Source: Prorocentrum cordatum (taxonomy: Eukaryota; Sar; Dinophyceae; Prorocentrales; Prorocentraceae). Taken from it: a stretch of DNA of 64,000 bases. The stretch spans positions 1 to 64,000 of the forward strand of contig CAUYUJ010001349.1 in assembly GCA_963575745.1 (NCBI GenBank), read 5' to 3'. Positions within the stretch are counted from its first letter, which is position 1, and each line of letters starts with the position of its first letter. Under the pieces are notes generated by a model that did no database searches, had not been told where the DNA came from, and worked only from the letters and a program-made list of their open reading frames with translations. Position numbers and translations under genes: made by a program. This document shows, one piece after another, positions 10,871 through 55,573 of this stretch.

Positions 10871-10911
10871 TCTCAATGATATGCATTGTTGACCCCCCTC
10901 CGATAATTAAC

Positions 10912-11015
10912 ATAATCCAATAGCCCTTATAACGGCGACGATGGAACACAGTGCCGGGGAACTGCTTTGAACATCACCAGTCGTTCAAAGCAGTGCCCCG
11001 GCACTGCTTTGAACG
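10912..11015 (+). repeat. Left terminal inverted repeat
   Basis: ATAATCC (10912-10918), AGCCCTTATAACGGCGACGA (10922-10941), one degenerate palindrome (about 10946-10971) and one near-perfect palindrome with 16-bp arms and CC centre (10982-11015). Its inverted partner is 27281-27384. Confidence 0.85.
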
Positions 11016-11820
11016 ATGCGGAAATGCGATCAGCAGGAGCCTTCGTCTGTTCCTTCTCCTCTTCTCGTCGCTGTATGCTCTTCCTTGTCCTCCCTCCTCC
11101 CCCGTTCCCTCTCTAATTAATTACCTCGTTCTCCCAGTCTCACGCGCACTCTTCCTCCCCCCTCTCCTCCTCCTCTTCCTGCTTCTCCTCCTCGTCCTCC
11201 TCCTCCTCCGCCTCCTCCCCCTCATTTGTTATATTTCTCCGTCCTTGTCCTCCTGTCCCCGTTCTCCTTCTCCCTCTCCTCCTCCTCCTCCTCCTCGTCG
11301 TCGTCGTCCTCCTCCTCTTCCTCCTCCTCCTCCTCCTCCTCCTCCTCTTCCTCCTCCTCCTCCTCCTCCTCCTCCTCCTCCTCCTCACCTTCTTCCTCCT
11401 CCTCCTCCTCCCCCTTTTCCTCTCCCTCCTCCTCCTCCTCCTCCTCCTCCCCCTTCCCCCTCTTCCTCCTCTGCTATCACTCCTCCATAATTCCTGTCCG
11501 CTCCTCCCCTTCACTGATCTTCCTCTTCGTCATCATCATCCCTTTCGTCGCACGCCTCTTAATCCTCAATCGGTTCCCAATCTTCTCGACTTTCTTGTCA
11601 TCCGCGTCCTTGGCTGTTGGAGGGGCCTCAGGAATTCTCAGGGCTCTTGTGTTGCACGCGAAGGCACACCTCCCAGGAACGCATCATCCTCCTCACATTC
11701 ACCCTCCTCCTCCTCATCCTCCTCCTCCATGCACGTTCGGCTCAAGCCCGCGCCGACGGTAGGTTTCACGGCGGTTGGGCGGGCTCGCGCCCGCCTCCGC
11801 GGCCTGCAGTCGGGGCAGAG
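11016..11820 (+). promoter_or_regulatory. Pyrimidine-rich leader of the 16.5-kb element
   Basis: Almost pure CT sequence, largely CTC triplets, from about 11090 to 11490, then mixed sequence and a second CT tract (about 11690-11735) before the first gene. Similar tracts precede each downstream gene (13480-13610, 15690-16010, 18785-18930, 20630-20681, 24990-25117). In dinoflagellates pyrimidine tract plus AG is the acceptor for spliced-leader trans-splicing, so these are candidate acceptors (inference). Long Pro/Ser/Leu-rich open frames through this tract are simple-sequence artefacts. Confidence 0.45.
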
Positions 11821-12987
11821 ATGCGTGCAGGGTGGGATGACAAAGCGGAAGAGGAAACACGGGCCGCAGTTGCGGATTCTTCAAAGAGCAGCGGCGGCGG
11901 TTGGGGAACAAGTGGGGGTTGGGGCGGCCGCAGTGGCGGATACGGCGGCGGAGGTGACCGCAGTGGCGGCTGGGGCGGCGGAGATTCTCTTGGCGGATGG
12001 AGAGGAAAAGCGCAGGATGGCGGCGACGGAAGTGACCGCAGTCGCGGATGGGAGGGCGGCGGATGGGGCGGCAACGGATGCGAGGGTTGGGGAATGGAGG
12101 GCGCCCGCTGGTGGGACGACGAGGGTGGCTGGTGGAATGCATGGGAAGGTGGCCGCTCGAGTGCCTCGGCAGGTTCTCCTGCCGCGGAGCCCGCGGCCGC
12201 AACAGCGGCGGGCAAAGGAGGCGGTCCCCTGCTTCCCCCAGGGCGCGAAGAACAAGGCGCAGTTGCGCTGTTTCAAATTGTGCGCAATGAGCCGCTGCCA
12301 ATTTTCAAGTTGGAATTCTTCGAGAACTTCAGGGCGAACTGGAACGGCAATTATAAGCAGCACAACGCGGCCTTGAAGTGGTTCCGAGACGAGTACGAAG
12401 ACCGAGAAAACCCTTTCGGCAGCCGCACGCCCGTCTTCGGAGGTACCGCAGTTGCGGAGGAAATTTCGAAGATCCTTAAGTACCGCGCAAAGGGGAAGGC
12501 GCAGGACAACAGGGATTGGGACTGGGACCACACTGTCAAAGTGCCGTGGTCTTGGCTGGAGATGGTCGCGCAGATGGATGGACCTACAATGCTGCGCGTC
12601 GTGTGCGGCCCTGACAATGACCGCAGTCGCGGGTTGGTCCGCTGCGAGTGCCGCCCGTGCCCTAGCAGTCTCGACAACATGAGGCACACGAAAGGGGTGG
12701 ACAGAGGACAGGCGCAAAGAATCCCTCTGCCCCAGTGGGATTTCGTCCTCATCCGCGACGACGGCTCGGGCATTCGCGTCCACCCATCCTGGTCTAGCCC
12801 GAAGTTCAACACGTATGAGGTGGAGCCGCACTCGCATCCCGTGCGGGGCCCGAGGGCAGGTCTCGGCAAGAGCGATGGCCACGGAACGTTCACGTTCTGG
12901 AAGATGCTGCACGCCCATCCGAATCCTGGGCGGTTCGACGCGAGCAAGGGGGCGCAGCTGCAACCGCGGTGGTCCGCGCAGCCTTGA
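11821..12987 (+). CDS. Gly/Trp-rich protein with conserved-looking C-terminal domain (element gene 1)
   Basis: 388 aa from the first in-frame ATG after the pyrimidine tract; the frame is open further upstream, so the start could lie earlier. Residues ~25-115 are low complexity, rich in Gly, Trp and Ser, of the kind seen in RNA-binding or phase-separating regions. From ~150 the protein becomes mixed globular sequence with many aromatic residues and a short Cys cluster (CECRPC), ending near an HAHPNPGRF stretch. No known family recognised. The CCGCAGTNGCGG motif occurs repeatedly inside the frame, contributing AVA or RS(C/R)G peptides depending on frame. It is the first of six co-oriented genes. 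Confidence 0.6.
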   Translation: MRAGWDDKAEEETRAAVADSSKSSGGGWGTSGGWGGRSGGYGGGGDRSGGWGGGDSLGGWRGKAQDGGDGSDRSRGWEGGGWGGNGCEGWGMEGARWWDDEGGWWNAWEGGRSSASAGSPAAEPAAATAAGKGGGPLLPPGREEQGAVALFQIVRNEPLPIFKLEFFENFRANWNGNYKQHNAALKWFRDEYEDRENPFGSRTPVFGGTAVAEEISKILKYRAKGKAQDNRDWDWDHTVKVPWSWLEMVAQMDGPTMLRVVCGPDNDRSRGLVRCECRPCPSSLDNMRHTKGVDRGQAQRIPLPQWDFVLIRDDGSGIRVHPSWSSPKFNTYEVEPHSHPVRGPRAGLGKSDGHGTFTFWKMLHAHPNPGRFDASKGAQLQPRWSAQP

Positions 12988-13652
12988 CACCGCAGTTGCG
13001 GGATTGCGCAGCCATGGAACCGCAGTTGCGGGGACCGATCGCGTGACGCCGCGCTCGTTTGACTCACTATGCGCGCTTTCGGCCGCAGTTGCGGCGCTGC
13101 CTTCTAGCGACTTCATACAGCTTGGCCGCAGTTGCGGCGCTCCCACGACTGACCGCTGTAATTAGGTGCTTCGGGCGCGCATCACCTCCGTTGAAGCACT
13201 CGTGACGTTAATTAGCGCGGCCGCAGTTGCGGAGACAGGTACTTAAACAGATGGATCCGCAGTTGTTCGTCGTCCTCGTCGCCCCTTCCCCGTCGTCCTC
13301 GTCGCAGTCTCCTCCCTCCGCCTTTCCTCCTCGTCGCAGTTCCTTCCGTTGGCCGTAGCCCGCCTCCGTTGGCCGAGTCATTTCCCGTCGTCCTCGTCGC
13401 AGTCCCCCCCGAGGGCCGCAGTTGCGGACTTTGTTGATTCCTCCTCCTCCGTTTCTGCCCCGTCATCCTCGTCGCAGTCCCCTTGCTCCTTTCACCCTCG
13501 TCTGAGCTCTTCGCGCCATCCTCTTCCGTCGCGTCCTCTCCATCCTCCTCTTCGCCTTCCTCGTCCTCATCCCCGCCGTCTCCCTCGTTGCCCTTCCTCT
13601 CCCAAGCCGGCCGCAGTTCCCCCGTCGGACGGGGGCCGCGCGCGGCCACGCC
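12988..13652 (+). other. Intergenic spacer in the 16.5-kb element
   Basis: Contains six CCGCAGTTGCGG copies (12990, 13020, 13083, 13126, 13221, 13416) and then a C/T-rich tract with TCGTCCTCGTCGCAGT repeats leading to the next gene. The motif's presence here as well as in genes shows it is not simply a protein repeat. Confidence 0.6.
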
Positions 13653-15478
13653 ATGGACCCAGGTCGCAAAGCCGAGGTCGACAAGCGGTTCGCCGAGCTG
13701 AAGCAGCAACTGCGGGAAAGGTTCGGCCTGCAAGGGGCTGCCGCGGATGCCGCAGTCGCGGAGCCGACGGAGGACCGCAGTGCGGAAGCCCCGAGCGACC
13801 GCCGCGCGAGGCCTCCCCGCAGTCGTCTAGCTCCTCGCGGGAATATCGGCCGCCGCCGCCGATAAGCGCTGCGAGTGGGAGCTCTGCTGGTGGGAGGCGC
13901 GAAGAGGCGCAGTTGCGCAGGGCGCACTTGACCCCCAAGGCAAAATGGGGGCCTCGGGCGCAGACGCCGACGAAGCAGCAGGACCAACCAGCAGTGACGG
14001 GAGCCGCCACCGAGACCGCAGTTGCGGGGGTGGCCGGCGAGCCAGGTGCCGCGCGCGGCTCATCTGGGAGCAGCGCGCCCTCGGCCGTGCTGCTCGCAGC
14101 CGAGTCCAAACGAGGCGCCCAACCCGAAGACGAGGCCGCCTCCCAGGAGAAAGCCGCCGAGACAACCGCCTCGGCCGATTCGCGGCCGAGGAAAAGGCCG
14201 CCTCCCACGGAAGACTCGCCGCTGTCAGAACCGCAGTCGCGGGGTCGCGCGGGGCCTCCGTCGGAACCGCAGTTGCGGGAAGATGCGGGAGCACCGCGGA
14301 AGAAGCAGCGGACCAGGTCCCCTCCAGGGATAAACTACTTTGGGGAACGCCCCAAGTGGAACGAAGGATTCCTTCGTACAGAAGACGGCAATCGGGTTCC
14401 GTCCACCATCGCTTTGGTGTTCAACGTGGTGGTCATCACGAAGGTGGCAACAAAGGAAGATGTCTTCAGGTGCATCTTGCACCAAACTGCGGCGGTCGTC
14501 TTCGTCGTATGGGACCCCGAGCTGTTCCGCACGGGGAACGTCGAAGGCGCTTGCAGCTACGACGTTCCCGTTGGACTCAGGACTGCCGTCGAAGACGCTG
14601 TCACTTTGAAAAACAACACCGCGGAGCCTTACTGGACGACGGTTGGCCTGTTCAGAGACACGGGCGTGGTGCTCGTGCGCCCGCACATCATCGCAGAGAC
14701 CGCAGTTGCGGGTCATGTTGTTGGGGCCACCCACGCCGTCACGATCCTGCGCTTTCGCCTGAAGGGCTCCGACATGAATCCTGCCGCGGTGATCCGTTTT
14801 GCCGTCGTGTCCAGACACGCAGTCACCGAACGTCTCCAACAGAAGATCACGCAAACAGAACAAACAGCGTGGCAGCCAGGTTTCTTCAAGGACGCGGTTG
14901 CTTCCATCCATAAAAATGATGTGCGGTTCTTGTGCGGCCTGTTTGACATCCCGCCTGAGCAGCTCGCAGCATTTGGCCGCAGTTGCGGAGCCAGCTACAC
15001 CTGCCCGGTGGGGGTGGTGTTCAGGGCTGGACCCGCCCTGTTCGGAGGCATTGTGGAGGGCACACGCGTCATGCATCCGAATTACGTCCTCCCCATTGGC
15101 CCGTGCGACGTGCGCATTGCGGACTACAACCTGGATTTTGCAGGGAGGCCGTCGAAGAACGATCCCCAGTGGCTCCCTGATTGGATGCATCGAACAAGCG
15201 ACTCCATCATCTCTCGGCGCTGGGTCCCAGCGAAGTACATGCCCAAGTGGGAGGATGACCCTGACCGCAGTAGCGGAGTCAGAGAAAAGCTCGGCTTGGC
15301 AGCGCTGCCCCCAATCGGCAAGGTCATTCAGAAGGAGCTCAACGAGAAGACCTTCAGCACGCACTGGTGCGAGGGCATCCACCAAAACATCGTCTTCGTC
15401 GGCCACGGACGCGCAAGTCGGGCGAGCAAGCGGAAGCACGAAGAGCCGCGATCTGCCGCAGTTGCGGACGAGCGGTGA
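13653..15478 (+). pseudogene. Element gene 2, frame broken by 1-nt loss in a motif copy
   Basis: The likely start is the ATG at 13653, opening a charged, helix-prone segment. This frame ends at 13863, but the +2 frame continues without stops to 15478. The switch coincides with 13775-13785, where the 12-nt motif reads CCGCAGTGCGG, one T short. With a full motif the two frames join, as RSCG, the peptide other copies give in that phase. I therefore infer a ~608-aa ancestral protein: an N-terminal charged/low-complexity half (Ser/Pro/Glu-rich, Lys/Arg clusters near 14290-14320 that could be an NLS) and a globular C-terminal half (from ~14330) of unknown family. Whether the lost base is real or an assembly error cannot be told from one sequence. 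Confidence 0.55.
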
Positions 15479-16179
15479 GTGCGGCAAGACCGAGGAGCCG
15501 CAGTTGCGGAACAGAGCTCGGTACTACTGGGCGCCTGCTGCCTGCGTAGTGCATCCCATTAGCGATGGAGTGCATGTTGCGGTGTAGGATAGCCCGCAGT
15601 TGCGGGGTTGCGGTTGCCAAGCCGCAGTTGCGGTTGCGTATAATAGGAGAGCACGCGGTTGCGAAGCCGCAGTTTGCAATAAGTGTGCGCGCGCTGGGTC
15701 ATCATCATCGTCGTCGTCCGTCCTCGTCGTCGTCGCTGCCGTCGTCGTCGTCGCGTCTGTCGTCTGTCGTCAGCAGTCGTCGTCGGTCGTCGTCGTCGTC
15801 AAGTCTGTCGTCTGTCGTCAGCAGTCGTCGTCGTCGTCGTCCCTCCTCCCTCCTCCCTCCTCCCTCCTCCCTCCTCCCTCCTCCCTCCTCGTCCTCCTCC
15901 AGGCCGCATCCCCCCGCCACCTCCGTCCTAGCTCTCCTTCCCCTTCCCCTCCTCGTCCTCCTCCAGCTTGCACCCCCCTCCCTCCTCCAGCCTGCGCCCC
16001 CCCCAAGCTCTCGCCCGATATTTTGGATTAAAACTGAGCCTTCAGTCGTCCGCAGGCATTCGGCTCAGCAGGTCGTTGGGCTCCTGGCACACACGCCTCC
16101 ACCCTGAGCGACGGACGTCGTGCCATAGTCCGCCATATCGGAGCTCCGGGCCGCAGTGGCGGACAGCGTCGGCACAGAT
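15479..16179 (+). other. Spacer with motif copies and pyrimidine/CGT tract
   Basis: Motif copies at 15498, 15594 and 15622. Then TCGTCG-rich sequence (15700-15840), CCTCCCTCCTCCCT repeats (15840-15900) and more CT-rich DNA up to about 16015; further motif copies at 16151 and beyond lead into gene 3. Candidate trans-splice acceptor region. Confidence 0.5.
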
Positions 16180-18606
16180 ATGAACGACAGCGTCGGCACA
16201 GATAATGCCGCAGTGGCGGACAAGAAAGCCGCAGTGGCGGACGAGACAGCCGCAGTTCCAGGCGGAACGCAAGGGATCTTTCAGAGGGCCAACGCCTTGA
16301 GGTCTAGATTCAGGACAGGGGACAAGGTGCGCCTCCCTGTGCTCATGCTCGCCCCGCACACGGGCAACCGAGGCGGGCACTACCCTCAGCAGGAAAGGGT
16401 TCGGGAACTCGCTGTGAAAATCTTCCTGGCTGGATTCACGCAAGCCGAAGCTGACCACGAAGGTGTCTGCGTTCAGATGTACCCAGCACAAGAGCTGGTG
16501 CTGAGAAAAAAGGAGGACCCGAAGTTCCAGACGTACACAGAGTACAATCTGGAAAAAGCGACCGGCCACCTCGCTGCGTGCTTCGACCGCAGTTGCGGAA
16601 CAGACGTTGCGTATGGGACGTGTTCGCACTCCCACTTGTGCCTCGTGTTGCGGGCGTGCGCCCTGGGAGCCAAGTGGCCCATCCCCCAAGGCATGGAGTT
16701 CACGGAGGACGAGAGCGCGAGGCTGAAGCGCGTGCTCGATAAGGACGGCAATCTCGACATGGCCGCAGTGGCGGAACATGACCCTGTCGCTAAGAAACTC
16801 GTGCAGGGGGGTATGCTCATGGAAGTGCTTAGCTGGAAAATCATGGACGAGGAACCCACTGGTGCTTCGCTCATCAGCCAGTCCCTCAATAAAGGAGCCG
16901 ATTTTGCGTTGCGAACGACTGAACTCACCGCGCTCCGTGTTCTGTGCAAGGCTGTTGACGCGGAGCTGCACGCCGCAGTTGCGGATCAGGTTGCCTTTGA
17001 AAAGGTCAAGCTCTCCGTCATGCACGAACTCGATCGAGTCGTTCAGGACCCAGACTTCATTGAGCTGTTCTCGTTCGTTGTTGGGCTCGGGAGCACGAAA
17101 GCGCAGTTCATCCCCTTGCTGCTCCAGTTCTGCGAGGTCTACGTGAACTCCAGGAGAAGGGCCCTTCGGCTCGGTGCCTTCGGGGCAGCCAGCGAGCTTC
17201 CCGACGAAGTGCCGTGGGTCAAGGTTGCCGTGGTGATGCGATGCTACAGGAACGCGCCTGCGAGGAAGAGGGGCGTTGACACTCCTGTGTGGTGCCCTGA
17301 CCCAGAACAATCGTGGAAGAAGAAGGAGTTCCGAGACTTCCTCATCGACATGAACTCGGCTCTCCGTTTGTACTTGTTCACGCTGAGCAAGGCCATCGAC
17401 GGCATGGGCCCTGAGAAGGCGATCGAGTTCAAGGCGAACCTGTGCATACTGACCGCAGACGGCTTCATGCAGTACCTGAAGGACACCCACGTCAAGGAAC
17501 GAAGTATCCCAGGACATCGTCAGGCGCTCCTCCGCGCTTGCGCGGAGGCCACGGGGAAGGTGGAGCCGAAGTCCAATCGGGACGCCCTTGAGAAGGCCCT
17601 CGGCGAAGTGGGAGTCGGAGGCGGGAAGCCCGATTGGTTCGATTTCAACGCGTTGCCGCGCCCAGAACCGAATGAGCCCGCAGTGGCGGGGAAGACAAAG
17701 GCTTCCGCAGAGGAGCACGAGTTGATGCCGACGGTCATTTCCTTTGACCCCACGACGCAATTACCAACGAACCACCAGCGCAGCAGGGACACGACGGCCA
17801 TTCCACGCGGATCCTTCCCTTTGCCAATCGCCGAATGGAGGCGTTCAGCGGCAGCGAAGGAGCTGGGGCGGGAGCCTGCTTTGGTCAGCGCAGTGTTGCT
17901 GTGCCTTTGGGCGCGCCACATGTCCGCAGTTGCGGAAGCGCAAGTAGAGGTGTTGCAAGACGCTGACACAGAGAAACGCACCGTCAAGGCAACCGCTGCA
18001 AACGACGAAAAATGCATCGAGTTGTGGCCGTGCGTCCCAAAGGCATCCAAGGTGCACGCCGCAAGCACGCACCCCGAGAGGGTGGCCGTGCAAGTCTGGG
18101 TGAAAGGAGATCCAAATGGGGCCACGCCCACGACCTTCTACTTGCACCCCGAGTTCAAGCCGCCTGCGGACAAGACGCCCGCCGACGTGGCTGAGCACGA
18201 TGTGCGGTTGAGAGCATGGAAGTGGGATGCGCAAGAGACAATGCACGTCTTCTGGGCAGTCAACAGAGTCACGGAACAGGAGATCCAGCAGAGAAACAGC
18301 CGTAATGAAAGCGCAGTTGCGCGCATCAACATGGAGCTGGAGACGAAAGAATTGGCGGTGTGCGTGCCTGGGACAGGCGGGGTCGTGCTCGCCGTGAATG
18401 TCCCTGTGCTGGTGAATACCACGGCCGTGAAGAAAGGAGAAGAGCCCCTGTGGGAGGCGAGACCCAAAACCGCACCGAAGAAGAAGGCGGCCGAGGAGAC
18501 GTGGAAGACGGACGCGGCCAAGAGGGCCAAAGGGAAGCCTTCGGGCCAGCCCGCGCCGAAGAAATCGAAGAAAGGATTCGACGAAAGCGGGAAGATGTCG
18601 CTCTAA
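16180..18606 (+). CDS. Unknown 808-aa protein with basic C-terminus (element gene 3)
   Basis: Start taken at the first in-frame ATG; upstream in-frame codons exist but no earlier ATG. The N-terminus has AVAD/AVAE peptides from in-frame CCGCAGTGGCGG copies. The middle is a well-mixed globular sequence with no membrane segment, including a Cys/His patch (CSHSH ... C) near residues 150-165. The C-terminal ~50 residues are Lys-rich (APKKKAAEE, KRAKGKP, PKKSKKG), suggesting nuclear localisation or nucleic-acid binding. No family recognised; no catalytic motif could be assigned. A motif variant GCGCAGTTGCGC at 18311-18322 keeps the stem by paired changes. Long antisense open frames across this gene are shadows. 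Confidence 0.65.
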   Translation: MNDSVGTDNAAVADKKAAVADETAAVPGGTQGIFQRANALRSRFRTGDKVRLPVLMLAPHTGNRGGHYPQQERVRELAVKIFLAGFTQAEADHEGVCVQMYPAQELVLRKKEDPKFQTYTEYNLEKATGHLAACFDRSCGTDVAYGTCSHSHLCLVLRACALGAKWPIPQGMEFTEDESARLKRVLDKDGNLDMAAVAEHDPVAKKLVQGGMLMEVLSWKIMDEEPTGASLISQSLNKGADFALRTTELTALRVLCKAVDAELHAAVADQVAFEKVKLSVMHELDRVVQDPDFIELFSFVVGLGSTKAQFIPLLLQFCEVYVNSRRRALRLGAFGAASELPDEVPWVKVAVVMRCYRNAPARKRGVDTPVWCPDPEQSWKKKEFRDFLIDMNSALRLYLFTLSKAIDGMGPEKAIEFKANLCILTADGFMQYLKDTHVKERSIPGHRQALLRACAEATGKVEPKSNRDALEKALGEVGVGGGKPDWFDFNALPRPEPNEPAVAGKTKASAEEHELMPTVISFDPTTQLPTNHQRSRDTTAIPRGSFPLPIAEWRRSAAAKELGREPALVSAVLLCLWARHMSAVAEAQVEVLQDADTEKRTVKATAANDEKCIELWPCVPKASKVHAASTHPERVAVQVWVKGDPNGATPTTFYLHPEFKPPADKTPADVAEHDVRLRAWKWDAQETMHVFWAVNRVTEQEIQQRNSRNESAVARINMELETKELAVCVPGTGGVVLAVNVPVLVNTTAVKKGEEPLWEARPKTAPKKKAAEETWKTDAAKRAKGKPSGQPAPKKSKKGFDESGKMSL

Positions 18607-19361
18607 TTAATTAAGAAGCCGCAGTGGCGGCAGACGGGGGGCTTGCTCGCGTGACCGCAGTTGCGGGCAACAGGCCGAAGGGGGGGGCGCACGCGTGACC
18701 GCTGTTGCGGAGCGCTCGTGTAGTTTGCAGTGTCACTGCTTCTGTTAGCTGATGCCGCAGTAGCGGACCGCTGACGATCGAGCACGGAGGTTCGAAACGG
18801 ACCTCCTCCCTCCCTTCTCCCTCTCCTCCCTCGCCCTTCCTCCACTTCCTCCCTCTCTCCTCCTCCTTTCTCCCCTTCCTCCCAAGTTGGAAGCCGAAAC
18901 TACTCATTTCCTCACTCCCTCCCTCCCTCCCTGGAGGCCCTGGAGGGCCTCCGCCCTGGAGGGCCTGGAGGGCCCTGGAGGCCCTGGAGGGCCTCCCTGG
19001 AGGCCCTGGAGGGCCTCCCTGGAGGCCCTGGAGGCCCTGGAGGGCCTCCCTGGAGGCCCTGGAGGGCCTGGAGGGCCCTGGGCTGAGGGCGGAGGCCCTG
19101 GAGGGCCTCCGCCCTCAGAATGCTTCAAAGCAGTGCCGCGGCACTGCTTTGAAGCACCCAGGTGCTTCAAAGCAGTGCCCCGGCACTGCTTTGAAGCATT
19201 CTGAGGGCGGAGGCCCTCCAGGGAGGCGCGAGGATCGCAGGGACCGAGGGAGGCCCTCCAGGGAGGCGTTCAGCTCGCCATCTGGCTCAACCGCGCGCGG
19301 CCCCACTGCCCGCACCTCCGCCTTGCCCGCAGTTGCGGCTGTGTCCAGCGCAGTAGCACAC
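18607..19361 (+). repeat. Spacer with CCTGGAGGGC minisatellite and central palindromes
   Basis: Motif copies at 18619, 18655, 18755 and a variant at 18699; CT-rich tract 18785-18930. A GC-rich minisatellite of CCTGGAGGCCCTGGAGGG units spans 18931-19112. Two large palindromes follow (19121-19156 and 19163-19198), flanked by CCTCCGCCCTCAGAA and its inverse, so the whole of about 19100-19225 can fold as one large inverted repeat. The palindromes match those in the element's terminal repeats. Confidence 0.65.
19121..19198. repeat. Internal palindrome pair related to the element termini
   Basis: 19121-19156 is a perfect 36-bp palindrome, TGCTTCAAAGCAGTGCCG and its reverse complement. 19163-19198 has the same 17-bp arms with a CC centre. 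The core TTCAAAGCAGTGCC also forms the palindromes at 10982-11015, 27281-27314 and 27315-27343. Confidence 0.85.
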
Positions 19362-20360
19362 ATGCCGACTTCGAGCGAATGGAGCCCTGTGTGCGTTGAG
19401 AAGGTCTTGTGCATCCGTGGAGGTTGGCTTGCGCAGACCACCCCCATCCCCGAAAAGGATGTCAAGGTGCTCCACGCATGGCCCCTCGGAGAGATAACTT
19501 TCGTGCACGTGAACATGCAAAAGGCTTGGCTGCTCAAGGTGTGCGCCAAAGGTAAACCGACCGCAGGGGCCTTGAAGGCCTCCAAGGCCTGGGACGCGCT
19601 GAAGAAAGAAGTCGCGAAGCAGGGCGGCGCCGCAGTTGCGGGCGATGAGAGCGACGGCGACGCGGGGGACGAAGCAGATGACCCCATGTCGGCCCTGGTC
19701 AGCCCCACGGACGCCACGAAGAAGCAGGCAGCGACCCCGACCAGCGCCAAGAAGCAGAAGACTGGAACGCGTGCGGCGACTACTGGCCTGCCCAGGGGCG
19801 AGGCCGTGGAGTCGGCCATAGCCACTGTGCACTCTGTACAGATGCCCGCAAAGAGCCCCATGAAGTTTCCGCACGACACGGCCGTTCGAAACGTGCGGGT
19901 GGCCAGCTTCAAGCGGAGGACGTTGTGGCTGGACGCTGCAGACCTTGGGTGGCTGATCGACATGATCGTGGACGACGTGAGCCTCGGCGGTGTCCCCGAC
20001 ATCGGCGACGGCGACAAGGACGAGGCCGCAGTGGCGGACAGGGACTGGGCAACGGCGGTTGACCCTGCCACCCCGCTGGCGAAGCAAAAGGAGGTCGACC
20101 CCCCCGTGGCGCAGGGGAGCGGCTCTGGCTTCACCGTCGTTTGGGACTTCAAGGGCGCTTGGGTCGCGACCATCACGCGAGAGTGTGCCAACAAGGGCAA
20201 AAGGATCGAGATGGATGTGAAGAAACTTACAAAGAAGAAGTGGCAGTCGGCGCAGTCGGTGAAGGGCTACGACTACGAGTGGGAGGGCATGACGCAGCAC
20301 CAGCGCAAGCAAGCGGCTCTGGATTACCTCGAGCTCCAAATCCCCAGTCTGTTCGACTGA
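19362..20360 (+). CDS. Unknown 332-aa protein (element gene 4)
   Basis: Starts at the ATG at 19362, downstream of the minisatellite and palindromes. The N-terminal ~75 residues are compact and mixed; an acidic, low-complexity linker follows (~85-135, with a Lys-rich patch), then a second globular region (~150-215) and a C-terminal domain (~245-332) with basic and aromatic residues. No known family. Two CCGCAGTNGCGG copies in the frame (19630, 20026) each give an AVA peptide. Two more copies lie right after the stop (20379, 20407). Confidence 0.6.
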   Translation: MPTSSEWSPVCVEKVLCIRGGWLAQTTPIPEKDVKVLHAWPLGEITFVHVNMQKAWLLKVCAKGKPTAGALKASKAWDALKKEVAKQGGAAVAGDESDGDAGDEADDPMSALVSPTDATKKQAATPTSAKKQKTGTRAATTGLPRGEAVESAIATVHSVQMPAKSPMKFPHDTAVRNVRVASFKRRTLWLDAADLGWLIDMIVDDVSLGGVPDIGDGDKDEAAVADRDWATAVDPATPLAKQKEVDPPVAQGSGSGFTVVWDFKGAWVATITRECANKGKRIEMDVKKLTKKKWQSAQSVKGYDYEWEGMTQHQRKQAALDYLELQIPSLFD

Positions 20361-20735
20361 GGCCCGAAGCCGTATGGGCCGCAGTTGCGGTGGGGCTACT
20401 GAGTGCCCGCAGTTGCGGGGTGGCTGGGTGCGCGTGAACACGCGGAGGGCGAGGCGGTGTGAGGAGGCAGGCGGAAGGTTTAGGGTGTTCCACGGGTGCA
20501 CGCCTTAGTGCGCCAACTTGTGTGGGCGAGCGTTTTTCTTAGAGAAGCATGGAGTGAAGCATCGAAACCCTGTGCGCGCGATGATTGGGGCTTCCGCGCG
20601 GGCGTTGTTGAAAAGTACCTCCTTCTTCGCCCCTCCGCATCGTCTTCAGTTGCTCCTCCCTCCTCCCCTCCCTCTTCCTAGTTCTGTAGCCCGCAGCCGA
20701 GTGCCCGGCCCGAGTCGTTCGCCACGCGACCGCTC
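20361..20735 (+). other. Spacer with candidate trans-splice acceptor
   Basis: Two motif copies, then unremarkable sequence, then a clean pyrimidine tract (20650-20679) ending in TAG at 20679-20681, 55 nt before the ATG of the transposase gene. This is the best-defined acceptor-like site in the element. Confidence 0.5.
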
Positions 20736-23700
20736 ATGGATGTTCCCGTGGGGCGGACATGGTATGGCGAGGAGGACGGAACGCATTTCGAGGTGGAGTG
20801 GCTCCATTACGACAGCGGCTGCGCACCGAGGAAAACGAAGTATGGCACCACTGGGCTCGCCAACATCTTGGGCCGCAGTAGCGGCGTTCCGTGCCCCAAG
20901 AAGATAAAGGTGCACGCATGTGCGGATTTTCCGTGCCTAGCGAAGTGGCCCGCGTCGCAGTACGGCCTTGTTGAGCCGCCTCGCTTTCATTTGCGGCCGT
21001 CTGCTTGGCGACCGGGCGCGACGCCACCCCCCGCAGTTGCGGCTCCAGGCGGCACCGCAGTTGCGGCTCCCTCGGCCCCTGCACACATAGCACCAGCAAC
21101 ACCAGCAGAACTCGCAGCTCCTGCGCAAGAAGGACACGCAGCTCCAGCACCAGAAGCACCCGCAGAACCCAAACCTCCAGCAGCCCCTGTGCCCGAAGCA
21201 CCCGCAGCAGCAGTCCCTCCAGCTCCTCCAGCTCAAGTGCACGCAACACCAGACCCGCCTGCTGCGCAGGAGACCGCAATTGCGGTTGAAGCTCCTGAGG
21301 GAGTGGAAGCGGACAAAGACACACCACTTCCAGCACGCTTGCCACCAGCGCGGCCGCTGCCAGAGAACTGGTCGAAGACGCAGGTCGCATTCTTCCCGTG
21401 CCCAGACCCAAAGGCTGCAGCACGAGTTGCGGCGCCTGTTGGCGACGCCTTGCGGCCACGAGTCGCGGCGCCACCCCTGGCGCCAGAGAAAGGTGTACCT
21501 GTGGAAGACGCGCCAAAGATCCAGGCCGCAGTGGCGGCGACGGTGCCTGACGTCGTGATGGCTCTCCTGAGGCAGATTCTGTCCGAGAATTCCTACATCG
21601 GGCATTCAGCTTTCATGCCGTTTGCCTTGCGGTTCGGGCGTCGACCTTACGTGTGGGAAGGCGAGAACCGCAAGGACCTCCTTGACTTCTACATGCCTTG
21701 GGCAAAGGAGAAGTGCACTGAGCCATGCGCCGTCGACGGCGTGGCGTGCGTACTCGCCGCTGCTGAGGATCTGTTCGGGGAATGGACAACGGTGGAACTC
21801 AGGCCCGTGACTCCCGAGAACCCTCTCCATGAGGTGCGCCACTGGGTGGCCGCAGTTGCGGTGGGTGGCGTGTGCTCTGAGGGGGCGGACGCGTTGAACA
21901 GGTTCTACGGTCCTCTGGGACAATGGGTCCTAGGGACTGTTTGCGATGGAAACTGCGGCATTGACCTTATGGCGATGATGTTGCAGAAACCGCAAAATGC
22001 CGAGACGCGCAAATGGCTTCGGGAGGAACTGTACGATTTCGGGGTGCGCCGCTGGGACGAACCGTGGTTGCACGACATGCTCGTTGTCACGCAGGAACTA
22101 ACCTTGGAGGAGGTGCGGGCGTACCGCAGTTGCGGGGCCAGCGGCCCTGCTGGACCCATGGTCCTGCACGACTCCGAGGGCGAGGGCGAACCAGCAGAGG
22201 CGCCGAGAGAGGCGAGCGCGCCACGCCCCGCTCTCATGGCGGCGTTAGAGTGGCAGACGGGCGTGCAGGACATGGGTATATTGCTTGCCATGGCTGAGGC
22301 TATGCCCGAGGCGTTGCAGGAGGAGCAGATCAGGGCGCACGCACTGGCCAGCGCACGCCCAAAACCCGAAGTTGCGGAACAGAAGCGGCGCGTGTGCCCG
22401 CACATGCTCAGAGACCGCGAACTGGTTTGCAAAGAACTGGAGGCGCACGCACGCAGTTGTGGTTGGATGGGCGAGGGCGTTCTGCCACGGAATTCAATCG
22501 CGTCTTTTTGCGGGCGGTTCACGTGGCCGAAGGGCATGGGGGTCGTCCAGCAGCGCCAGGCCGTCTCCAAGTGGTTTCAAAACTGGCGCACACAAGGTGG
22601 ACATGGCACGGCGGGCGTGCATGGCCGACGCCGCGCGCGGGGCAACCAAGGGCGCCCGAACAAGGCTCCATGGCTGGAAGCCGCTCTGTACGAGTGGTGG
22701 TCCCACATGAGGTACTCCGTGGACTGGAAGGCGGTGGCCAAGCGAACCGCAGTTGCGGAGGAGAGGCCCAAGATGTTGGCCAGGTTCTCCCAATCCCTGC
22801 TGGTTACGAAGGCGAAGCAACTCGTCGCGGACTACTGCGTGGAGACAATGAAGCGGGGAGGCAAACCGATGGTGCCGCAGTTGCGGCCTCGGTGGTGGGT
22901 GAAGTGGCGGCGCTCCTACGGCCTGAGCATGAAGAAGCCGAACCGCAAGTACAAGGTGCCAAAATGGTTGCTCCAATCTCGTTTTGAGACTATGATCTTG
23001 AACGTGGCCAGGGTCCGCGCAGCTGCAGAGGAGCTTCTGGGGTACGACCCGCACATCCTGAACTGGGACCAGTCGCCCTTTCACCACAACGAGTCGTCGT
23101 CGGCCTCGAAGCCGACCTTGGCTGTGAAGGGTGGCATTGTCCCGCTTGTCGAGGCGCATGACGACAGCAGGGCTCGGTGGACAGCGAACCTGACGGTGTC
23201 GAGCGACGCGGAGGACATCCGCAGTTGCGGACCACCGCCGGCGGAGCTAATGTTCAAGGGGGGATCTGTCATCGCTGAGGGCTTGGCCGCACATGCCCGC
23301 AGTCGCGGCTATCCGTCTTGGGTGAGCACGGCGACGTCCGAGAAGGGGTCCTACCGCGCAGACGACGTTGTATCATTCTTGCAGCGGCACTTGCGGGCCT
23401 GGCCCGACGACCCGCAGTTGCGGGGAAAGTGGCGCATCCTCATGGCCGACGACCATTCCCCGCACAAAGCAGACGCTGTGCGGAGACTCGCCTGGCAGCG
23501 CGGCTACGTGCTGATCATTCACGGCGGGGGGACGACCGCAGTTGCGCAGCCCGTGGACACGGACTTGAACCAGCACGTGAAGCGCCGGTACATTGCCCTC
23601 GAGACCAAAGCGCTGGTGCAGCAAATGGCGTTGGGGAAGCACGTGCCGCAGTTGCGGCGTTCCGATTGCGCCGACTTGATGCTGTCAGTGTTGGAGAATG

Positions 23701-24851
23701 TGCAGTTGCACTTGGACGCCGCGAAAGGTTTCCTGAAAGTGGGAATTCGAGCGCCCTTCGACAAGTCAGGAGATCTCGAGATTTGCCGAGAGGCGGCGGA
23801 ACTCTGGGAAGCAGGGGGGCTGCGAGCAAAAGTGGACACCGCAGTCGCGGAGGTGAGGGAAGAATGCGAGCAGAAACGTTTGAAATGGTCCTACAATGAC
23901 GTGCTGCGTCTCATACACGAATACGAGAAACACGACGCCACAGATTCCGTGTTGGAGAAGCTCGGCGACGAAGCGCTAGGCCAGGAGCCAGGCCACGAGG
24001 AGGGCGATGAGGAGGGCGGGGAGGAGGAGGAGGAGGAGGTGCACGAGGAGCACGAGGAGGACGAAGAGCAAGAGGAGGCCTCGTGGGCCGAGGCTCTTGC
24101 GGAACAGTGCGATGCCGCAGTTGCGGCACCTGGGCCTCAAGGATCCTCGGTATCCATGGACTGCGTGGTCGACGCAGAGGCGGCCGAGCAGGTGGCAGTG
24201 GCGACGTCCTTGGCAGAAACGCTCCGCGAGGCGGAAGATATGCTGCGCCAAGTGGGCATGGAGAAACTAGCGCAGGATTGCCGACAGCAGCGACACAAAC
24301 AAAAGAAGCGGTTGAGAGAGCTGGCGCGGGAGGACAACGAGGTCCTACGAGCGTTGACTGCCCAGCGAGACCACGAAGCCGCCGTGGTGGCGAAAAAGCG
24401 GCGCCTGGCTCTGGAAGCGAACGACAGGACGAAGGCGTTGCACGATCTCAAGAAGCAGATTCGAGAGGCCGAGGCCGCCTTGAGGGCAAAGAAGGAGGCC
24501 GCAGTTGCGGTGGAAACGGCTTTGGCTAACAAACACGCCCTAGCGCAGTGGAATCCCGAGGAGTTCAAGATCAAGAAAAACAGGATGGCAGCTCTGGATC
24601 GCCTGGCTCGCGGAAAAGGCGTCCTCTCAGACGAGCAGAGGGGGGAGTGGGCATGGTTCAAGACGCATTGGGACGAGGAGATGTGCAAGCAGCACAAGGA
24701 GCAATGGCCGCTCACGTTTGCTGGGTGGCTGCAAAAAGTCGCGAACGACGCGGCGTCTGGGAACCGTTCGGCGCTGTCGCAGTTCGTGCATTCGGAAACA
24801 GTGAGAACCCTGGGAGGGCAAATGGCGCTGGTAATCCCAGCCCTAGCGTGA
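20736..24851 (+). CDS. DDE transposase with DGNC (OTU-like) N-terminal module (element gene 5)
   Basis: 1371 aa. In order: N-terminal globular segment (1-90); Ala/Pro-rich linker (~95-200); a region around residue 404 reading V-C-D-G-N-C-G-I-D, which resembles the DGNC catalytic-cysteine motif of OTU proteases but lacks the usual Phe-Arg after it; an HTH-like region ending with a CENP-B-type stretch (RWWVKWRRSYGLS, ~718-730); then a transposase core. Core residues visible are N-W-D778-Q-S, A-D905-D906-H-S-P-H and Q938-P-V-D941, the pattern of pogo/Tigger-type DDE_1 transposases (strand-end Q-P-x-D). C-terminally there is an acidic run (~1090-1125) and a long coiled coil (~1180-1290). It is the best candidate for mobilising the element through its 104-bp TIRs. 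The family usually encodes 350-600 aa, so this protein is greatly enlarged. Motif copies occur in all three phases (PQLR, AVA, RSCG). Confidence 0.75.
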   Translation: MDVPVGRTWYGEEDGTHFEVEWLHYDSGCAPRKTKYGTTGLANILGRSSGVPCPKKIKVHACADFPCLAKWPASQYGLVEPPRFHLRPSAWRPGATPPPAVAAPGGTAVAAPSAPAHIAPATPAELAAPAQEGHAAPAPEAPAEPKPPAAPVPEAPAAAVPPAPPAQVHATPDPPAAQETAIAVEAPEGVEADKDTPLPARLPPARPLPENWSKTQVAFFPCPDPKAAARVAAPVGDALRPRVAAPPLAPEKGVPVEDAPKIQAAVAATVPDVVMALLRQILSENSYIGHSAFMPFALRFGRRPYVWEGENRKDLLDFYMPWAKEKCTEPCAVDGVACVLAAAEDLFGEWTTVELRPVTPENPLHEVRHWVAAVAVGGVCSEGADALNRFYGPLGQWVLGTVCDGNCGIDLMAMMLQKPQNAETRKWLREELYDFGVRRWDEPWLHDMLVVTQELTLEEVRAYRSCGASGPAGPMVLHDSEGEGEPAEAPREASAPRPALMAALEWQTGVQDMGILLAMAEAMPEALQEEQIRAHALASARPKPEVAEQKRRVCPHMLRDRELVCKELEAHARSCGWMGEGVLPRNSIASFCGRFTWPKGMGVVQQRQAVSKWFQNWRTQGGHGTAGVHGRRRARGNQGRPNKAPWLEAALYEWWSHMRYSVDWKAVAKRTAVAEERPKMLARFSQSLLVTKAKQLVADYCVETMKRGGKPMVPQLRPRWWVKWRRSYGLSMKKPNRKYKVPKWLLQSRFETMILNVARVRAAAEELLGYDPHILNWDQSPFHHNESSSASKPTLAVKGGIVPLVEAHDDSRARWTANLTVSSDAEDIRSCGPPPAELMFKGGSVIAEGLAAHARSRGYPSWVSTATSEKGSYRADDVVSFLQRHLRAWPDDPQLRGKWRILMADDHSPHKADAVRRLAWQRGYVLIIHGGGTTAVAQPVDTDLNQHVKRRYIALETKALVQQMALGKHVPQLRRSDCADLMLSVLENVQLHLDAAKGFLKVGIRAPFDKSGDLEICREAAELWEAGGLRAKVDTAVAEVREECEQKRLKWSYNDVLRLIHEYEKHDATDSVLEKLGDEALGQEPGHEEGDEEGGEEEEEEVHEEHEEDEEQEEASWAEALAEQCDAAVAAPGPQGSSVSMDCVVDAEAAEQVAVATSLAETLREAEDMLRQVGMEKLAQDCRQQRHKQKKRLRELAREDNEVLRALTAQRDHEAAVVAKKRRLALEANDRTKALHDLKKQIREAEAALRAKKEAAVAVETALANKHALAQWNPEEFKIKKNRMAALDRLARGKGVLSDEQRGEWAWFKTHWDEEMCKQHKEQWPLTFAGWLQKVANDAASGNRSALSQFVHSETVRTLGGQMALVIPALA

Positions 24852-25178
24852 TGCAGGCCGCAGTTGCGGACCCACAGGAAGTCCAGAGGGAAGTTGTTTT
24901 TCCAAGCGGCTCCCGCGCGGGCAGGAGATGAGGCAAAACCGCAGTTGCGGTCTTCCTGCTGCTGTGAAAATAATCCTTTCACAGTCCCTTGCAATCGTCG
25001 CCCTCCTTCTGCTTCTCCGCCAGTCCATTTGTTGTTCTTTCGGTTCCTTTGAGTCCTCGCCCTCCTTCTGCCACTCCTCGAATCCTCTTTGTCTCCTCCC
25101 TCCATCCGACCCCATGCCCATTCACGATCCATTTCCGTAGCCACCGTGGCTCGAGGTGGCGCACGCGAAGACGCAAGC
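24852..25178 (+). other. Spacer with pyrimidine tract
   Basis: Motif copies at 24858 and 24938, then a CT-rich stretch (about 24990-25117) and the start of gene 6. Candidate trans-splice acceptor region. Confidence 0.45.
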
Positions 25179-27164
25179 ATGTGGCCGCCCGCGCGCCCGA
25201 GCGCATCCTCAGGGAGTATGGACCGTGGACCTCGATTCGCCAGAACGGTGTTCATCCACAACGCTGAGGAGGAGGAGGGAGGCAAAGACGAGGAAGCCGC
25301 AGTTGCGGATGATGACGACGACCAGCGGACGCAAGATGGCGACAGCACCGTCGCGTCCTCGGCTGCCTCCGCTGACGAGGCTGAGTCCCGGGGAGGTGCG
25401 GGAGCCGCAGTTGCGGCAGCACATGACTCCTACATGCCGAGAGTGTTGTCGTCGCGGAGACCCTGGAAACGGGTGCCCATCATCGAGACAAGCAATCTGT
25501 CGGAAAAACAAAGAGCTCTTGTCGACGCATGGGAGGAGAAAACGGAGTTCGAAGCGGGACGGGTCGGCTTCTACGTGGCCAACTTCGGAGGGGCTGCAGC
25601 TAGACCCACGCCACGCGCGGACGAGTGGGCGCAGCTCCGCGCGAACCCTGCCCAGATCATCGCCCTCTGCGAGTGCGACGACGAGACCTGCGCGGTACTC
25701 AGTGGGGAGCACGACGCGAGGGACAGTGCAGCCGCAGTTGCGGACGATAGGTTTCGGAGTCGGACTCAATACAACTACCTGTGCGTTAAGGGCGGCGAGC
25801 CATCAGGGACCCTCCTTGTTGGCATGAGGGACCGCAGTGGCGGCCACATTGAACACGTAGACTTTGCGAGACTCTTCCACAAGCAGGAGAAGTCCAAAAC
25901 GAAGAAGAAGAAGAAACAGTCCGCAGTTGCGGAGGCTCCTGCGCCAAAGCTGCACAACAAGTACTCCAGGGCGATGGTGGTGCGCGTCCACCTGGACCAG
26001 GCCGTGACCCATTTGGGGGGCTCCTTCAACGTCATGGCGGTGCACGTCCACCACAGCTTGGCCAACCAAGACTGGGGCGTCACGAAGCTCCATGAGTTCT
26101 ACAACTGGTTCGTCGCCTACGTCAGGGAATGGGACGTGAAGGTCTGCATGGGGGACTTCAACATGTGCATGTTCCAGCTTGTGTCCTGGTGCCGCAATTG
26201 CGGCCTGACTGTGGACGTCGCCGCGTGGACCCCCTGGAAGACAGCAGGCGGCCAGCCCAGGGCAGACAGCATGGCGATTTTGTTCATAAACTGTCCTGGG
26301 CAGTACAAGCTTCACCATGGCCTGAGTGTTCTGCACGACCGTGAGGGCGGATTCTTGACGACCCAGCATGATCCGTCTTTCCCTGTCTTCGACTACACGA
26401 ATGGCCCTGGGAAGATGCTTCAGACTTACGTGCCCAAGGCTGAGCCCGTTGAAAACAAGATGCGCGCCTTCCTGACGCCATCTGGCGAATCCTTGACCGC
26501 AGTTGCGGAGTTCGAGCAAAGGATGGCGCGCAGGGAACGCGACGATTGGGTGCGCCATCCCTTCAGAGTGAAGCAGGGCAACCTCGACGACAAGATATGG
26601 CATGGCGCCTTCGGCAGGGCGAGGCACGGAGCGCACTTCCCTCTGGTGGCTTTCACGCACAATACGTGCCGCAGGTCACCTGAAAGACTCGCCGCGAGGT
26701 TGGAACGCAGGAAGGGCGGCAGGAAGGGCGGCAAGAAGGGCGGCAAGAAGGGCAGCTACGCGGACACCGCAGTTGCGGGGAAGGGCGTCCGACCCCAGAT
26801 GGGAACCGCAGTTGCGGGGAGAGACGCTGGGGCTGAGCGAGCTGGGAACACGCCACCGCCGCAAGCTGCCAACGGCGACGATGCGACCCCTTCTTGTGCC
26901 GCAGTGGCGGCTGGGTCCTGGGACGCCAGCGGCAGCGGCGCATGGGAGGCGCGCAGTCCCGCCACGAGATGGCAGGGCTGGTCCTGGTGGGACTGGAGCT
27001 CGAGCGAATGGGGCGCTGATGGCGCGCAGTGGTGGCCCTCTGATCATGCCGCAGTTGCGGACAATGCCCCTGAGGGCTCGCCTCCTCAGCGTGAAGTCGA
27101 GTGGGGCTCGAGCGGGCGACCTGCCGAGCGCCCTCCGCGGAGCTTCGAGGGGCAGCGTTGGTGA
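25179..27164 (+). CDS. Endonuclease/exonuclease/phosphatase-fold protein (element gene 6)
   Basis: 661 aa from the first ATG. The EEP superfamily pattern (APE1/LINE endonuclease/DNase I fold) is visible: N135 in VANFGG, E165 in ALCECDDE, G-D326-F-N328-M, and a final G-A485-H486-F-P-L. The last element normally reads S-D-H; here the aspartate position is Ala, so catalysis may be impaired or altered. A Lys/Gly-rich tract (KGGRKGGKKGGKK, ~510-525) and a Trp/Ser/Gly-rich C-terminus resembling gene 1's low-complexity region follow. There is no reverse transcriptase next to it, so this is not a LINE ORF2 but a separate gene in a DNA element. Motif copies contribute AVA, RSGG and RNCG peptides. Confidence 0.65.
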   Translation: MWPPARPSASSGSMDRGPRFARTVFIHNAEEEEGGKDEEAAVADDDDDQRTQDGDSTVASSAASADEAESRGGAGAAVAAAHDSYMPRVLSSRRPWKRVPIIETSNLSEKQRALVDAWEEKTEFEAGRVGFYVANFGGAAARPTPRADEWAQLRANPAQIIALCECDDETCAVLSGEHDARDSAAAVADDRFRSRTQYNYLCVKGGEPSGTLLVGMRDRSGGHIEHVDFARLFHKQEKSKTKKKKKQSAVAEAPAPKLHNKYSRAMVVRVHLDQAVTHLGGSFNVMAVHVHHSLANQDWGVTKLHEFYNWFVAYVREWDVKVCMGDFNMCMFQLVSWCRNCGLTVDVAAWTPWKTAGGQPRADSMAILFINCPGQYKLHHGLSVLHDREGGFLTTQHDPSFPVFDYTNGPGKMLQTYVPKAEPVENKMRAFLTPSGESLTAVAEFEQRMARRERDDWVRHPFRVKQGNLDDKIWHGAFGRARHGAHFPLVAFTHNTCRRSPERLAARLERRKGGRKGGKKGGKKGSYADTAVAGKGVRPQMGTAVAGRDAGAERAGNTPPPQAANGDDATPSCAAVAAGSWDASGSGAWEARSPATRWQGWSWWDWSSSEWGADGAQWWPSDHAAVADNAPEGSPPQREVEWGSSGRPAERPPRSFEGQRW

Positions 27165-27280
27165 TGGCCGCAGTTGCGGGCAAGTGGAGCATGATGTTGA
27201 TTGCCGCAGTTGCGGACAGTGTACGCTGGAAAAATCATCATCATCATCAATCATAATCATCATCATATCATCATATCATA
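27165..27280 (+). repeat. Tail of the element: two motif copies and ATC-rich tract
   Basis: Motif at 27168 and 27204 followed by (ATC)n-like sequence (27234-27279) immediately inside the right terminal repeat. Confidence 0.6.
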
Positions 27281-27384
27281 CGTTCAAAGCAGTGCCGGGG
27301 CACTGCTTTGAACGCGTTCAAAGCAGTGCCGGGGCACTGCTTTCGATCGTCGCCTCGTCGCCGTTATAAGGGCTTTCGGATTAT
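27281..27384 (-). repeat. Right terminal inverted repeat
   Basis: A perfect-armed palindrome (27281-27314), a second truncated one (27315-27343), then TCGTCGCCGTTATAAGGGCT (27355-27374) and GGATTAT (27378-27384), the reverse complement order of the left terminus. Confidence 0.85.
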
Positions 27385-27660
27385 CATTATTTGTGCTCGC
27401 ATCCTGTTTCCCTCATAAGGGAAAGCGAGGTGTCACCAAACTGGGTCCCTGGCCCCCGAGTTACAATAACAGCGTCTCCCGCCAGATACTATCTCACAAG
27501 TTATTTCAAATACGCGCTCTCACGCGGGACTTCTTGTAATGCGTGTAGGAATCGCGCTCTCGCGTGGGACTTCTTCGCGACCAGGGCTCTCGCTCGATAC
27601 TTCCTTAACCTGTATTCAGGGACGGCGCCATTTTGCCCACCGCAGATGTTCCCATCGCGA
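27385..27660 (+). repeat. Dispersed repeat copy B, right part
   Basis: Continues the dispersed repeat begun at 10871-10911: GCTCGCATCCTG, CCAAACTGGG, CTCACAAGTTAT, ATCGCGCTCTCGCGTGGGAC match copies A and C. The 16.5-kb element splits this copy. The conserved 3' module is missing. Confidence 0.6.
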
Positions 27661-45960: not shown

Positions 45961-46245
45961 ACTTTAAACGGAGAAGGTTAAAGGCGAGGTATAAATCGAG
46001 CATGTACCGCTGCCGTGCCTGGCTCAAGCCGGGCCCGGCCAAATATATGACTGTGCCTCACTGAGGCGCACGACTTGCATCAGAGATCGGAAAATACCTT
46101 TTCCATTGACGATGCCCATCCTATCCTTTACTCCAGATCCCATGCTTCGTCTTGCACTCTTGCTCATGCGATATGAGCCAAAGCCTGGGATATGGCAACG
46201 CTTAAAGCGTAACACATACCTAAGCTTACCAGCTTGTTTTCGACT
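45961..46245 (+). repeat. 5' LTR
   Basis: 285 bp, identical to the 3' LTR. Termini are ACTTTAAACGG...TTTTCGACT, not the usual TG...CA. Contains TATAAAT at 45990-45996 and, at 46006-46028, a sequence resembling the spliced leader (ACCG..GCC...TGGCTCAAG). The Gag-containing frame begins inside it (ATG at 46112). Confidence 0.9.
45990..45996 (+). promoter_or_regulatory. TATA-like box in the 5' LTR
   Basis: TATAAAT, 29 bp into the LTR, repeated at 62108-62114. Most dinoflagellate genes are thought to lack TATA boxes, so this may be the element's own promoter (inference). Confidence 0.4.
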
Positions 46246-55372: not shown

Positions 55373-55404
55373 CGGGGGCAGGCGGGCGCGCCGGCGGCGC
55401 TCGC
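55370..55404 (+). promoter_or_regulatory. Candidate type II stop-codon readthrough signal
   Basis: UGA followed directly by CGG. The stem GCGGGCGC (55382-55389) can pair with GCGCTCGC (55397-55404), one G-U pair, 7-nt loop, starting 9 nt after the stop. UGA-CGG/UGA-CUA plus a 3' stem-loop about 8 nt away is the known type II readthrough signal. The 67 codons between the stop and the next ATG (55574) are open and in frame. Confidence 0.55.
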
Positions 55405-55573
55405 TTGCGAAGAGAAGCCGAATACCGGCCTCCTCGCGACATACGTTGGCCGCGCTGAGGCCCGAGAAGAAAAATATCATTCAAAATGTCTCGTCATCGA
55501 AGATATTCGCACAGCTTGCGCTGAACTCCGAACCCGTGGATATATATGCGACCGGATTACCCATAATGAGGTA

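Follow-up and report, generated by a model that had tools for sequence, protein, structure and literature searches.

The first 64,000 nucleotides (nt) of contig CAUYUJ010001349.1 from the dinoflagellate Prorocentrum cordatum (assembly GCA_963575745.1), which we call the window, contain a transposon of about 16.47 kb whose six open reading frame (ORF) regions all lie on the plus strand. Dispersed through it is a 12-nt motif, CCGC-AGTN-GCGG (CCGCAGTNGCGG), for which a 4-bp hairpin of -5 kcal/mol is predicted. A search of both strands of the window finds 68 exact matches on the plus strand and 0 on the minus strand, the first beginning at 11864 and the last ending at 27215; in 100 dinucleotide shuffles of the window the mean is 0.06 and the maximum is 1. 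An earlier note on this DNA, made from its letters alone, had described about 70 copies in fixed orientation between these same coordinates, a chance expectation far below one and a single variable loop base, and the counts bear it out on each point: the loop base N is T in 47 copies, G in 12, C in 6 and A in 3. The paired stem changes that it had noticed are likewise present, as GCGC/GCGC (three copies) and GTGC/GCAC (one copy) around an AGTN loop. The window has no exact match outside the element on either strand, and its one-mismatch matches there number 4 on the plus and 3 on the minus strand. On the minus strand of the element, AGTN loops on a 4-bp stem are absent even with G-U pairs permitted, and Rfam at gathering thresholds returns 0 matches in 10900-27400.

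What kind of element carries this array? Its ends are ATCC...GGAT, with TA outside both (10913-10914 and 27382-27383). Among 10 other copies, the left anchor was found in nine, all nine reading TAATCC, and the right anchor in six, five of them reading GGATTA; the TA seen at 9/9 left and 5/6 right anchored junctions could belong to the end repeat. ORF5 matches the Pfam family DDE_1 with an E-value of 0.093 and 12.7 bits, under the curated cut-off of 22, and the alignment of transposases contains the conserved blocks NWDQSPFHHNE, MADDH and QxVDTDLN. No Pfam match above cut-off, and none of a capsid-like kind, was obtained in the six element proteins scanned, and the ORF2 part at 13865-15475 also gave no Pfam match. 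The element resembles the Tc1/mariner-pogo group in the TA outside its inverted-repeat ends and in its putative, weakly DDE_1-like transposase. Members of that group usually have one or two genes and span a few kb, whereas this element has 16.5 kb, six ORFs and a hairpin array. We note two further features of its sequence. At the ORF2 frame change (13775-13785) lies a motif copy without its N base (CCGCAGTGCGG), and a near-perfect palindrome in mid-element (19096-19223; 63-nt arms, 98% complementary) contains a CAGTGCC...GGCACTGCTTTGAA repeat that resembles repeats near both element ends.

Table 1. Coordinates of the transposon, its hairpin array and the copia-like element in the window
Feature	Position	Strand	Remarks
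Transposon	10915..27381	+	ends ATCC...GGAT, TA outside both
Dispersed CCGC-AGTN-GCGG hairpin array	11864..27215	+	68 motifs, exact matching
ORF1	11821..12987	+	388 aa, glycine-rich N-terminal part, no Pfam match
Motif cluster after ORF1	12990..13232	+	5 copies starting at most 234 nt past the stop
ORF2 region	13653..15478	+	open frame changes near 13775-13785
Motif cluster after ORF2	15498-15633	+	
ORF3	16156..18606	+	816 aa, no assigned function, start uncertain
Motif cluster after ORF3	18619-18766	+	
ORF4	19149..20360	+	up to 403 aa, start uncertain, no assigned function
Motif cluster after ORF4	20379-20418	+	
ORF5	20736..24851	+	1371 aa, putative DDE transposase, weak DDE_1 match
Motif cluster after ORF5	24858-24950	+	
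ORF6	25089..27164	+	up to 691 aa, start uncertain, no Pfam match
Motif cluster after ORF6	27168-27215	+	
Copia-like element, ORFs	46106-55372, 55574-60775, 60819-61973	+	
Copia-like element, GCGGG-GNNA-CCCGC array	46392..61934	+	30 copies of GCGGGGNNACCCGC, all sense

Conservation, placement and pairing of the motif

Is the motif kept for its own sake? Three diverged elements were compared with that of the window: one on contig C15, a truncated one on contig C4, and one designated L059. The C15 element is collinear with that of the window and 64-70% identical to it in matching blocks of at least 400 bases, and it carries 42 exact motifs, all sense. At 61 of the 68 window sites the alignment to C15 is gap-free (four lie outside aligned regions and three have gaps). 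All 11 fixed bases are identical in C15 at 21 of these 61 sites. For gap-free windows overall the figure is 216 of 12,646, and an average identity of 59% between the window element and C15 predicts 0.19 fully kept sites. At 12 of the 21 sites common to both elements, the loop base N differs. Fourfold third positions were compared at all sites, shared or not, in codons that agree at their first two bases; identity is seen in 66 of 78 at the fixed positions of the motif, in 420 of 935 elsewhere and in 8 of 20 at N. In this alignment, then, eleven bases of the motif are held and the twelfth drifts as silent sites do, and the motif is apparently held by selection at the nucleotide level.

These figures bear directly on whether the array has any function at all. 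A mobile 12-nt insert would keep genes in frame, templated repair is able to create palindromes, a repeated peptide could be the unit that is kept, and alignment gaps do occur near motif sites of the transposase, in variable regions (21031, 21055, 21274 and 24115) and, by a single residue, at 23412. However, none of these accounts would leave one base to drift and hold the other 11, synonymous ones included, and we find an array without function the least credible of all the explanations considered. The mobile insert is ruled out by the conserved transposase blocks, in which homologs align gap-free through the motif sites at 22875, 23219, 23297, 23536, 23646 and 23839 (for example, HGGGTTAVAQPVDTDL in the window and HGGGTTPVAQPVDTDL in homolog P0003), and the idea in the earlier note that hairpins might come and go as 12-nt units finds no place there. 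The gap-free alignment indicates that the motif arose mainly by substitution, altering amino acids where needed. The protein-level peptide repeat is ruled out because the motif is read in three frames and also occurs in noncoding copies.

Coding sequence holds 49 of the 68 copies, of which 32 are read as x-Ala-Val-Ala-x, 12 as Arg-Ser-x-Gly and 5 as Pro-Gln-x-Arg. Among the 19 noncoding copies, 17 begin at most 234 nt downstream of a stop codon. Of the other two, the copy at 13416 occupies a pyrimidine-rich stretch ahead of ORF2, 429 nt past the stop of ORF1, and the copy at 16151 precedes the nominal ORF3 start by 5 nt and falls in an open frame. Between 11821 and 27215 the density is 3.8 motifs per kb in coding and 7.5 per kb in noncoding sequence, the limits of the ORFs being those set in this analysis, with uncertain starts for ORF3, ORF4 and ORF6. 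The pyrimidine-rich stretches ahead of the genes are otherwise without the motif, which their composition would scarcely accommodate. The hairpin-rich stretches that follow the stops are probably 3' untranslated regions, and placement in coding and post-stop sequence would fit a feature of the mature mRNA, which comprises the coding sequence and the 3' untranslated region.

Changes in the stem often preserve pairing. When the C15 counterpart of a window motif differs by exactly two stem changes and nothing else, the two are complementary within one pair in four of five cases (GCGC/GCGC, TCGC/GCGA twice, and CCGT/ACGG). When it differs by one stem change only, the result is a G-U pair in four of five cases and C-A in the fifth. 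Similarly, the outer pair has changed on both sides to G-C six times in C15, three times in the window and twice in the C4 element (5 exact motifs and 2 GCGC/GCGC copies, all sense), and one-sided outer C-to-G or G-to-C changes occur once in each of the three. Stem variants with one mismatch, counted across the C15 element as a whole, comprise five C-to-T, one G-to-A and two C-to-G. As evidence for RNA versus DNA, the wobble counts point both ways. Immediately outside the stem, the first pair is complementary in 28 of 42 C15 copies (20.4 with shuffled partners) and in 22 of 68 window copies (16.7), and no excess of pairing was found beyond this first flanking pair in either element.

Could the array instead act as DNA? 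Its copies might be double-stranded sites for an element-encoded protein, like those of VANC in the anti-silencing of Arabidopsis VANDAL transposons, and would mark the chromatin of the element. The motif bound by VANC21 is short, dense, of one orientation and enriched in its own family, and VANC motif and protein change together (PMC5735166). The present motif shares this density, co-orientation, family specificity, element-wide change and location in a DNA transposon, and, with VANC sites packed and aligned in the same manner, orientation alone is not decisive. Moreover, matching changes in the two arms could also come from selection on a palindromic site bound by a dimer, and the wobble counts that discriminate are few and do not all speak for RNA. 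VANC motifs, however, are double-stranded DNA sites that the same source places mainly in noncoding tandem repeats (PMC5735166), whereas the hairpins described here are dispersed, mostly coding or post-stop, and often preserve their pairing when they change. Only the copy at 13416 occupies a pyrimidine-rich stretch ahead of a gene, and in an array that did not grow by tandem duplication a DNA site needs no single orientation, yet the count is 68 to 0. Since location in coding and 3' sequence together with paired changes favours RNA over DNA, we regard the DNA-level array, the main rival of an RNA reading, as doubtful.

Relatives of the element and copies across the genome

Traces of the motif extend through the family. 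These were followed at the peptide level, and in L059 also in the DNA. Among 98 transposase homologs, the first of which is 100% identical and probably comes from the same genome, 97 contain at least one of the sense peptide signatures. The three signatures occur 536, 214 and 58 times, as against 11.7, 7.0 and 2.8 in shuffled sequences; their antisense equivalents occur 16, 7 and 27 times (6.5, 1.5 and 10.4 shuffled), the third of these being inflated by its overlap with the sense PQLR. For six control peptides the ratio to shuffled sequences ranges from 1.0 to 6.3. An Ala-Val-Ala trace is present in 13 of 13 full or partial ORF3 homologs, these being the matches counted from a total of 15 (one is from the same genome, and two short partial matches were omitted).

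L059 comprises 7,733 bases and encodes a transposase 42% identical to that of the window. It is filed in a Planctomycetia metagenome-assembled genome (TMED53), where it is probably a eukaryotic contaminant. It contains a single exact CCGCAGTNGCGG; in its place CCGCAATNACGG occurs 21 times in sense and 0 times in antisense orientation, with N again free, and describes a hairpin of 5-bp stem and CAATNA loop. The stem reaches further outward: among the 21 copies, the first outer pair is C-G in 12, T-A in three, T-G in two and G-C in one, and the second outer pair is G-C in 19. Pairing at the flanking position is found in 18 of 21, compared with 14.0 after shuffling (P 0.003). Seven of the copies within ORFs can be aligned to the window transposase, and two of the seven are no more than 6 nt from a motif site in the window. 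The same letters have changed at some twenty places in L059, as a co-evolving reader would impose. The peptides of another homolog, P0006, suggest AATN loops.

The L059 hairpin also bears on processing by an RNase III, the function that the earlier note had connected with the AGNN tetraloops of yeast Rnt1. The AGTN loop does fit AGNN, and the likeness ends there. Rnt1 cleaves its stems at a good distance from the loop, whereas here the stem is too short: pairing does not go on past 4-5 bp, and neither the window nor the C15 element shows an excess of it outside the first flanking pair. In addition, the letters of the stem are conserved, L059 uses CAATNA so that AGNN is not kept across the family, and dozens of cuts within coding sequence would be expected to destroy the messages of the element. 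We consider Rnt1-like processing very improbable.

How far does the motif extend beyond these elements? Within the 64-kb window it is limited to one element, as the earlier note had it. Across the genome (4,128,499,153 bases in 21,875 contigs) it is not: short dispersed repeats (L014, L015 and L016-L020) hold one motif each, followed by ATAAGAGTGAGGGG or GGGGTCAGCATTTAC, and explain part of the genome-wide count. That count is 16,045 forward and 17,588 reverse, compared with 3,006 and 2,958 for a reversed-pattern control. The earlier note had held that equal orientation genome-wide would remove an element-specific RNA interpretation, but near-equality carries no such force, because elements insert both ways. 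Where the orientation can be read against the transposase, in 30 fetched loci that include the window locus, the motif is confined to the transposase strand in 30 of 30, with 15-20 copies per fetched locus. The genome holds at least 79 near-identical copies of the transposase; the 79 matches scored against a 549-aa stretch of it are all 100% identical after rounding, which indicates that the family spread recently.

Among viral sequences in IMG/VR, motif pairs were found in 12 stretches, mostly with 2 copies and one with 3, and the L059-type pattern in 2 stretches of two copies each, apparently from phage. One viral contig (3300020034_000040) supplies two of the 12 stretches (L005 and L009), with 8 and 7 copies on one strand, several at 72-base spacing, which looks like a tandem repeat. 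A relative of the transposase, sought with a profile, is encoded by none of the 18 viral stretches with pattern matches.

A proposed RNA tag and its reader

We propose that the sense hairpins tag the RNA and that a protein co-evolving with them reads this tag in trans, and we give this reading somewhat better than an even chance. Short RNA hairpins with a 4-5 bp stem and an AGTN loop would be selectively kept in every gene of the transposon, across coding sequence and probable 3' untranslated regions, and would act as a repeated identity tag on its own transcripts. A protein would recognise the tag in trans, many copies being bound per RNA, and when the specificity of this reader shifted in a lineage the motif copies would shift along with it. 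The most likely reader would be encoded by the element itself, a part of the proposal to which we extend about half of the confidence placed in the whole. Such a reader might favour the RNAs of its own element through export, stability, translation, or retention of RNA and protein together. The earlier note had also read the array as RNA hairpins. Conservation and pairing-preserving changes sustain that reading for a hairpin that is sense and element-specific, and among the roles it had named, protein binding or self-marking agrees best with the evidence, the AGNN/Rnt1 part not being supported.

Several observations weigh against an RNA tag with its own reader. The 4-bp stem is weak at -5 kcal/mol, and folding energy cannot separate the strands because the antisense strand of the 12-mer folds equally well. 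When C15 counterparts with up to 3 mismatches are admitted, a single stem change leaves the pair open in four of eight. Motif bases and other bases are equally variable (0.0051 and 0.0054) among 30 near-identical copies of the element; these have probably been drifting since insertion, and equal variability would then be expected. Stem variants in the same copies are G-to-A 12 times, G-to-C four times, C-to-G twice and C-to-T never, counts that are rows and probably represent few events; G-to-A without C-to-T is the opposite of the wobble lean expected on the sense strand. For the U-G variant TCGCAGTNGCGG, the count over the whole genome hardly exceeds that of its reversed control (4,391 versus 4,194). 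As to the reader, Pfam recognised no RNA-binding domain in the six proteins scanned, and sequence searches of the PDB gave no useful match (for the ORF3 profile, chance-level matches only, at E 0.43 and up; for the ORF5 transposase profile, none up to E 0.1; for ORF6, none up to E 1).

The reader need not belong to the element. The hairpins could recruit or block a general host factor, such as an RNA-binding protein or the decay, translation or small-RNA machinery, or they could act through structure alone. Dinoflagellates depend heavily on post-transcriptional control, according to one report (PMC12787238), and a second element of the window carries a hairpin distinct from this one, loop included. 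Structure alone leaves the fixed letters of stem and loop unexplained, and a single host factor cannot account for element-specific versions of the motif, though the host of L059 differs. We judge a general host factor, or structure alone, to be unlikely.

The other element just mentioned is copia-like (46.1-62 kb) and carries the second array listed in Table 1. Of its 30 copies, 26 are in one frame (A-G-x-P-A) and 4 in others. Copies are evenly spaced at 49541-49631 (every 30 nt) and 54878-54950 (every 24 nt), indicating that part of the array grew in tandem. That an unrelated element bears a sense array of its own speaks for the proposed tag. The copia pol homologs show no clear trace of this second array (AGxPA 6 versus 0.8, in 4 of 29), which counts against that reading, and the array could be recent or in part a repeat of peptides. 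Homologs P0121-P0123 have short repeated peptides of their own, HGNV and PGNR, which could encode GNAA-loop hairpins on other stems. The 3088-aa ORF of the copia-like element also matches the Tpt1/KptA and RING families. Elsewhere in the window, an ORF resembling those of long interspersed nuclear elements, with reverse transcriptase and RNase H, lies at 30892-33852, and the analysis of 27.4-46 kb returned no recurrent hairpin family besides a CCCTATAGCC tandem repeat.

Is there a precedent for such a tag? Single-stranded RNA viruses such as MS2 and STNV use dispersed RNA packaging signals, which are reported to be recognised collectively (PMC6281560, PMC4751978, PMC3593212). There a coat protein recognises the signals and packages the RNA. 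Like those signals, the array consists of many short sense stem-loops with a common loop, dispersed in coding sequence, the likeness being at the level of sequence. Unlike them, it resides in a multi-gene DNA transposon with no recognised capsid gene, and the letters of its stem are conserved as well. Among the papers listed in the literature searches, which did not extend to paywalled ones, none described a comparable transposon array, and the exact motif text occurred in one unrelated Bdellovibrio paper only.

Finally, the RNA tag, if confirmed, could be put to use in the sequence-based sorting of transposon RNAs, and a short, specific RNA-protein pair could serve as a tool. It also raises the question of who reads the tag, and whether there is one reader per element. 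More tentatively, we suggest that unrelated dinoflagellate elements, here a DDE transposon and a copia-like element, may carry class-specific barcodes of sense RNA hairpins with element-encoded readers, by which each would recognise its own messages in cells that exert little transcriptional control. If the proposed reading of the DDE element is true, a cut-and-paste transposon marks its own RNA, does so at a cost to its protein sequences, and belongs to a family in which the tag would have been kept across distant marine elements.

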